A stretch of 46,942 nucleotides of DNA, taken from Terriglobia bacterium (GTDB taxonomy: Bacteria; Acidobacteriota; Terriglobia; Bryobacterales; Bryobacteraceae). Each line of letters starts with the position of its first letter. Position 1 is the stretch's first letter. Made by a program: the position numbers and the translations under genes. Positions 45,566-46,942 of the stretch are shown here, one piece after another. The stretch covers positions 1-46,942 of the forward strand of contig JAJPJN010000083.1 of NCBI GenBank assembly GCA_021324185.1, given 5' to 3'. The notes under the pieces are model-generated. The model was not told the origin of the DNA, did no database searches, and worked only from the letters and a program-made list of their open reading frames with translations.

Positions 45566-45925
45566 GAAAACCCGTTTAACTCCTCTCCCGGTAACTCATA
45601 TTGCGCTGGTTGCCTAGCACCACCACCGAAATCATCGGCAAGCTTTTTCCAGCACTCACGCCGGAGCCGTGACAGGCTCTGGCAAAAACCCATTTTCAAA
45701 CAAGGCGTTGGAGGACAGCACCCTGTTGTTGGCTTGGAAGGAACCCGGGGACGATCTGTATACTGCTGTTTGCCGCCGCTGAGGAGAAAATGCTCACAAA
45801 AGAACAATTGCCTCAGGTAATGCGCCCTCTAAACCGCTCGATCCCCAAAAAACCCTCACCCAATACGCCGGCCTGATTGCATCTGTTTCAGAGCCTGAAT
45901 CTGCATCAGTGCGACCGCCCTTTCA
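45566..45925. other. Gene-poor stretch with possible gene remnants
   Basis: No convincing intact gene is seen in these 360 bases. One 28-codon frame at 45790-45876 (+) has a good GAGGAG ribosome site and starts LTKEQLPQVMRPLNRSIP, but is too short to judge. In another forward frame, bases 45828-45872 read SKPLDPQKTLTQYAG, which resembles the N-terminal start of acidobacterial propeller-type sensor kinases and then loses the resemblance. The stretch is best described as decayed or recombined DNA. Confidence 0.4.
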
Positions 45926-46284
45926 TCACCCTTCACGAGTATGAACGTTTTGCTGATCGGGCGACGGATCTCGGTGGAGTCCTAATCCGTAAACCGGTAC
46001 AGAGTGGCGAGCCTCTACAGGAGGAGAAACTATCACCGGCGCTAAGCGTACGAGCAAAAATAGGATTGCGCCAGCCACTGGAAACCCTAAAGCCAACAGA
46101 GCCAAGAACGCCAGACAGGACCGTAGGAAAACGCCGCCGTGGCCTCCAACGACGGGTAGCCAAACGAGTCCGAAACCGGCGAGCAGGCTGATCAAATCTC
46201 CGAGCCGCACTGATGGCATGTGAAGCCTTTTCGGAGAGCTCGGCGATCCCACGTTATGTGTGAGTTGCAAATGGGACACGTCAT
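45926..46284 (-). pseudogene. Zinc-ribbon plus two-TM membrane protein, split by a frameshift
   Basis: The ATG at 46284 has an excellent AAGGGAG site and begins a zinc ribbon, MTCPIC then FTCHQCGSEI, with four Cys in two CxxC pairs. It hits TGA at 46192-46194 after 30 residues. From the neighbouring frame the reading continues at once as a membrane protein: ISLLAGFGLVWLPVVGG, then CLAFLALLALGFPVAGAILFLLVRLAPVIV, ending at TGA 45926. Adding one T to the TTT run at 46194-46196 (AAA on the plus strand) joins them seamlessly as GSEILISLLAG. Zinc ribbon followed by two helices is a common small bacterial membrane protein design of unknown role. A true deletion or a homopolymer assembly error are both possible. 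Confidence 0.7.
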
Positions 46285-46294
46285 GGTTACTCCC

Positions 46295-46942
46295 TTAGAA
46301 GCCGTCGTACGCTTTAACCACTGCTCCGGCGATAACAGGCGCAGTCAGGGTAGCCGCCTTCATTGCACCGCTGGGCGGTCGCCCTGTGAAGTTGAACCAC
46401 CAGGTTAAAGCCTTATGGATCAGTGTTGCCGAGTTATCCGATATCGCGGCGACAATCTCGCCACCATGGGCGACAAGAACACCCCCTGCACCGGCGGTCG
46501 CCGCCGCTCCAGTCCATGCAGCCTAGGTGCATGGGTTCGTGATAACCCGAGATGTTCTCTGCAAGGTGATATGAGTGAGGACCGCCTGTGCGTAGTCGCT
46601 CAGCGGGACGTCCTTCTGCTGGCTCGTTCCCCAGGTGCCGAGGATGCTCAGATACACTTCATAACTTGGCGGTCCGGGGTCACCCGCTAAAGCGGACGAC
46701 ACCTCTGAAATTTGGACCTGATATCCAAGCAGATTCGCAAGCTGCGCTGCGCTAGCTTTATCACCTGATACGAGATATTTCTGGATGGCGCTTGCGGCAA
46801 AATTGCTGTCGACATTCTGAACGTATTGGCTGTAGCCATTTAGGTCATCGCCAACGATCGATGAGAACGGACTCGATAAGCCCCAGGAAGATACCGCTCC
46901 GCTGTAGCTGCCGCCTCCACCTCCGCCAATACTAAAACCAAA
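46295..46942 (-). pseudogene. Partial reading frame interrupted by one in-frame amber codon
   Basis: The minus-strand frame entering from the right edge runs 139 codons, beginning FGFSIGGGGGGSYSGAV, to a TAG at 46523-46525. The same frame then stays open for another 75 codons to a TAA at 46295, whose bases form part of the ribosome site of the next gene. The second part (AAWTGAAATAGAGGVLV, ALTWWFNF) has no plausible start with a ribosome site, so one interrupted gene fits better than two. The family is not recognised; the Gly-rich start could be the variable end of a large surface protein. Nonsense mutation, read-through or sequence error cannot be told apart here. Confidence 0.55.

Follow-up and report, generated by a model that had tools for sequence, protein, structure and literature searches.

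A broken zinc-ribbon membrane protein gene behind a broken Rhs gene end in a Terriglobia bacterium: the probable remains of a two-gene Rhs competition system

Near one end of a contig from a Terriglobia bacterium (Acidobacteriota), a minus-strand reading frame that encodes a zinc ribbon runs into a stop codon, and two putative membrane helices follow in another frame. The contig (C78, 46942 bases, from an assembly of 4.70 Mb in 184 contigs) was analysed as a whole and is referred to here as the window. This arrangement raises the question of whether the two parts represent one gene or two, what kind of event separated their frames, and to what larger unit they belonged. The zinc-ribbon part (46195 to 46284, minus strand) comprises 30 codons with the pattern CPIC...CHQC, starts at an ATG at 46284 behind a ribosome-binding site, AAGGGAG, at 46296-46290, and ends at a TGA at 46194-46192. 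The membrane part (45926 to 46198, minus strand, in the other frame) contains two hydrophobic segments, carries a GLGL motif in its C-terminal tail, and ends at a TGA at 45928-45926; its 19-residue Kyte-Doolittle maxima are 1.72 for the first segment (about 46195-46139) and 2.63 for the second (46105-46049). An ATG in the membrane-part frame, at 46217 to 46219 on the minus strand, represents a possible separate start. A previous sequence-only reading had described the same coordinates, the ribosome-binding site, the two CxxC pairs, the two hydrophobic segments and the TGA at the join, all of which our analysis reproduced. The stop-free run is weak evidence by itself, as 23% of 90-codon stretches drawn at random from the window also lack stops, and codon scores are weak for both pieces. 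A tail that carries on in the zinc-ribbon frame after 45984, which had the better codon score, was considered and rejected; the tail in the membrane frame aligns with relatives up to GLGL.

In order to find relatives, the genomes of the class were searched with the two window pieces joined by an X and then with one relative, L013, for single ORFs holding both parts, a filter that retained 24 of 57 loci. A family profile was built from 21 of these 24 relatives, with the window left out. When this profile was run against all stop-free window stretches of 20 aa or more, the two adjacent frames ranked first and second (E 2.8e-6 and 0.01, respectively), followed by a match with an E-value of 1.8, which makes the adjacent pair more than a chance association. 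Across the 42 places in other genomes that comprise all matches of the L013 search outside the genome of origin, 38 have a profile match that starts in the ribbon and reaches the membrane region without leaving the ORF, and none showed the two parts split. The four places without a family-profile match include the three rows with stops among the 42 (L066, L127, and L129) as well as L133, which matched the profile only at an E-value of about 1 and lacks a ribbon; among other places, L132 has a poor first cysteine pair, and L030, L060, and L063 are portions of longer ORFs. Homologues that end after the zinc ribbon, with the membrane part as a separate gene, were specifically looked for, and none were found in these 42 places. 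The earlier claim of a single broken protein-coding gene is therefore upheld, as relatives carry ribbon and membrane part in a single ORF and the profile picks out both window frames. Three sets of data do not inform this count: the 27 relatives used for alignment (the 24 filtered loci less L054, L060, and L070, plus L071-L074, L118, and L119) were pre-selected for having both parts in one ORF and thus are unable to show the absence of split genes; the alignment behind the family search, a search whose listed matches include L071, L072, L073, and L074, contained the window, and matches to the genome of origin therefore carry no weight; and the stop-bearing rows of the X-joined search and, among the matches listed, of the family search were all weak.

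The window gene shares with these Acidobacteriota zinc-ribbon and two-TM proteins the CxxC...CxxC pattern, present at its N-terminus, the two hydrophobic segments behind the ribbon, present in the other frame, and a short C-terminal tail; it differs from them in its missing linker and in the change of frame. No family name was found for these proteins, and the displayed matches of the window ribbon to Pfam and NCBIfam zinc-ribbon families were all below curated cut-off. Among the 60 nearest relatives, the membrane part gave one weak match (E 0.0096) besides the genome of origin, so that few members of the genus share the small gene; a further relative from this genus, L072, is more distant. 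No match was obtained in a first scan of genome contigs with the membrane part or in a plasmid search with the small protein of L118. An AlphaFold model of that protein (mean pLDDT 58) places helices at residues 33-54, 57-64, and 66-91, and found no match in the PDB at E <= 0.001. Separately, the tree contains a clear zinc-ribbon/two-TM subfamily with histidine-rich C-termini (L044, L048, L050, L051, and L056), of which L044 and L048 come after a gene whose product, as judged by eye, ends S1-like. Another recurrent product in genomes of the same family is a short zinc-ribbon protein whose tail is very acidic (e.g., L015, L025, L076, L078, and L084).

The spacing between the two parts reveals the nature of the break. 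In tblastn comparisons with the intact relative L101, the zinc-ribbon part matches residues 8-36, down to 46195, and the membrane part, from 46195, matches residues 48-107; residues 37-47 are absent from the window where it matches this gene in two frames. The membrane part also aligns to residues 41-118 of L118. From the codon of the last zinc cysteine to that of the serine in the first membrane segment, the window has 17 nt (46190 to 46206, minus strand), whereas L013, L043, and L118, which are among the nearest relatives, have 17 residues, or 51 nt. This spacing is at least 17 residues in all 27 aligned relatives and exactly 17 in 22 of them, with values of 18, 18, 19, 20, and 25 residues in the remaining five. 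The alignment behind these numbers spans divergent proteins, and its register is less sure for the most distant of them. The window gene has neither one unbroken ORF nor a spacing of 17 residues or more, and is thus a broken copy. Judged against the ancestral spacing, as reconstructed from four Rhs-linked relatives that are 23-35% identical and from more distant others, no close relative having been found, approximately 34 nt coding for the linker between the zinc ribbon and the first helix is missing from the window gene, and this accounts for the change of frame, since 34 leaves a remainder of 1 on division by three. The sequence-only reading had attributed the break to the loss of one base in a T run; the run in question (46196-46194) is only three bases long, and the deficit of about 34 nt (17 versus 51 nt) does not agree with such a loss. 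Homopolymer sequencing error, which had been offered together with decay as likelier than programmed shifting, is likewise rejected on the spacing in relatives; decay remains favoured from that earlier statement, as does its dismissal of a programmed shift. This case illustrates that the spacing found in relatives can distinguish a deletion from a homopolymer error.

A feature that the sequence-only reading had missed lies directly upstream. By homology, the neighbour is the broken end of an Rhs gene and part of the same two-gene module as the small gene. This C-terminal end (46298 to 46942, minus strand) is cut off by the contig end, keeps a single frame across an internal stop, and terminates at a TAA at 46297-46295; the Rhs gene and the small gene are 10 nt apart and run in the same direction. 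The internal stop is an in-frame TAG at 46525-46523 on the minus strand, located directly behind the NPCT motif of the Rhs C-terminus. With intact relatives as queries, and the window not included, the Rhs C-terminus of L102 gives a single-frame match in the window that spans the TAG (E 4.4e-9, 41% identity), as do the Rhs C-terminus of L119 (E 1.9e-7) and a profile of three relatives (E 1.1e-11). The piece before the TAG had no match beyond its own genome in 60 genomes; the upstream piece gave a best E-value of 0.28 against solved structures, and found no relative in one scan of viral contigs. An Rhs core for the window copy would lie beyond the contig end at 46942.

Intact versions of this gene order were found elsewhere. 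This Rhs C-terminus led to four intact loci (L101 in G164; L102/L117 in G141; L107/L119 in G147; and L118), and a zinc-ribbon/two-TM gene comes next in each of them; the small gene of L101 is the same gene as L013. The Rhs core TIGR03696 is present in L101 and L102, with an RHS repeat also in L102, and these two proteins matched only Rhs/YD models and no toxin model in Pfam and NCBIfam at E <= 0.1. L118, from an Acidobacteriaceae MAG, has an Rhs ORF that is 1085 residues long or longer and was the only new one of three loci that came from a contig scan; AlphaFold modelled its Rhs C-terminus with a mean pLDDT of 33.5, too low to be of use. Four further candidates stand outside the 4/4 count, namely L110 (transporter-like) and L111 (an 876-aa receptor-like ORF), both set aside after their ORFs were read, L108, which has stops and no zinc-ribbon/TM neighbour, and L116 (G091:C150:2779-2877), a fragment with stops and no such neighbour seen in the stretch examined. 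L116 derives from the same Rhs C-terminus, but its genome belongs to a different family of the class.

Approached from the small gene, 2 of 20 inspected zinc-ribbon/two-TM genes (L013 and L043) sit behind genes whose C-termini resemble the upstream piece of the window and which bear the Rhs core, and the other 18 loci have no recognised Rhs gene directly upstream. As most inspected family members lack a recognised Rhs neighbour, the Rhs-linked branch was probably recruited from a wider zinc-ribbon/two-TM family. In the tree, the window gene falls together with L013, L043, and L118, all of which adjoin Rhs genes (support 0.947); L119, the fourth Rhs-linked gene, falls elsewhere in the tree with low support. 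Scored separately, the membrane piece is closest to L118 and the ribbon to L013. The Rhs C-terminus is sparsely distributed; among 237 genomes of the family, that of L119 matched one, the window's genome of origin (E <= 0.001), and the Rhs C-terminus profile matched 5 of 399 genomes of the class, including the genome of origin and a fragment with stops. This patchy distribution fits an accessory module. The GC content of 45566-46942 is 0.552 compared to 0.582 for the rest, a weak indication given that 7% of sliding windows are as low.

Elsewhere in the genome, the only Rhs core matches (E <= 0.001) are two pieces of contig C30, each below curated cut-off and each covering one part of the domain. 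Near that contig's end, a second region (L122; G000:C30:63000-69692) carries colinear Rhs matches in three frames. A small ORF with hydrophobic segments, as judged by eye (C30 65933-66274, minus strand), is also located in this region, with a further Rhs-like fragment behind it. Behind the broken small gene of the window, 44 bp (45825-45868) are 98% identical to part of what appears by eye to be a propeller-sensor-like gene on contig C46 of the same genome, and this stretch is probably a gene fragment. A DNA search of 60 genomes returned the contig itself, this 44-bp match in its own genome, and four short, weak matches, and the window contains no tRNAs and no RNA families at gathering score.

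Homology of both window genes to intact neighbours, the conserved gene order, the missing linker and the stop codon are all directly shown. Together they suggest, with a probability that we put at roughly three in four, that the window holds the relic of an Acidobacteriota two-gene Rhs competition module that lost the linker in its second gene and carries a TAG in its first. In such a module, the first gene would encode an Rhs-repeat protein whose C-terminal domain is hydrophobic and variable. Shortly downstream, the second would encode a small protein that begins with a zinc ribbon and continues into two membrane helices. From their position and by analogy with Rhs loci, the C-terminal domain presumably acts as the toxin and the membrane protein as the matching immunity factor, which would presumably block the toxin at the inner membrane. 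In the window copy, loss of about 34 nt of linker coding has shifted the frame of the second gene, and the first gene carries an in-frame TAG. Because of these lesions, both genes are most likely non-functional. Somewhat against this reading, the zinc-ribbon/two-TM family extends far beyond the Rhs pairs, L119 stands apart from the window gene in the tree, and all four zinc cysteines and the C-terminal motif are retained, so that decay is recent or incomplete.

We infer true decay rather than assembly damage at the contig end, an alternative under which both genes would be intact in the organism and a repeated Rhs region would have been collapsed or misjoined. Such damage is unlikely overall, even though both lesions fall in the last 800 bp of the 46942-bp contig, where assembly errors are likelier, and the contigs bearing L101 and L119 also end inside an Rhs gene, as would be expected if repeats break assemblies. 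An error of this kind would have to explain two unlike lesions in two neighbouring genes, one of them a gap of some 34 nt rather than a single base in a run of three, within a window whose long ORFs are otherwise intact; the multi-frame state of the second Rhs region also argues for decay, although an assembly error could be the cause there too. A second alternative, two overlapping working genes, one for a zinc-ribbon peptide and the other for a membrane protein, draws on the ATG at 46219, which is in the right frame, has a purine-rich stretch upstream, and opens a frame that continues to a family-like C-terminus; it is nevertheless very improbable given a zinc-ribbon product of only 30 residues, the absence of split genes in other genomes (0/42), and the breakage of the adjoining Rhs gene as well. 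Programmed ribosomal frameshifting is scarcely credible, since, although the frames overlap and both match one family, the join has no slippery heptamer, as the sequence-only reading had correctly observed, the parts share one frame wherever both were recognised among the 42 places, and about 11 linker residues would still be absent after a shift.

Decay of a two-gene module thus remains the preferred reading. The broken window gene itself is ordinary; its relatives point to a small gene pair adjoining Rhs proteins in Acidobacteriota, and the four intact loci offer places to try the toxin and immunity roles. We tentatively propose, at somewhat below even odds, that the intact relatives may form an undescribed class of Acidobacteriota Rhs toxin-immunity pairs, in which a hydrophobic C-terminal domain with a conserved (N/S)PC motif would be neutralised by a zinc-ribbon/two-helix membrane protein, with a patchy distribution across families of the class, and that the window pair may be dying as a unit.

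According to Zhang et al. 2012 (PMC3482391), Rhs and CDI polymorphic toxin loci encode a C-terminal toxin followed by a downstream immunity gene. The loci described here resemble this arrangement in having an Rhs core (in L101 and L102), a variable C-terminus, and a small gene that follows immediately on the same strand; they differ in that the small gene encodes a zinc-ribbon/two-TM protein, that L101 and L102 match no toxin model, that the activities are putative, and that both window genes are broken. To our knowledge, an immunity protein of the zinc-ribbon/two-TM type has not been described. In those parts of the literature on Acidobacteriota Rhs and polymorphic toxins and on zinc-ribbon TM immunity proteins that were accessible (including PMC12419801), no description of such an Rhs and zinc-ribbon/TM pair was met. 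A Salmonella orphan rhs-CT/rhsI pair was shown by Koskiniemi et al. 2014 (PMC3967940) to encode a working toxin and immunity protein. Unlike that pair, both window frames are interrupted and the contig ends before any Rhs core is reached; like it, the window combines a C-terminal piece of an Rhs protein gene with a small gene linked to it.
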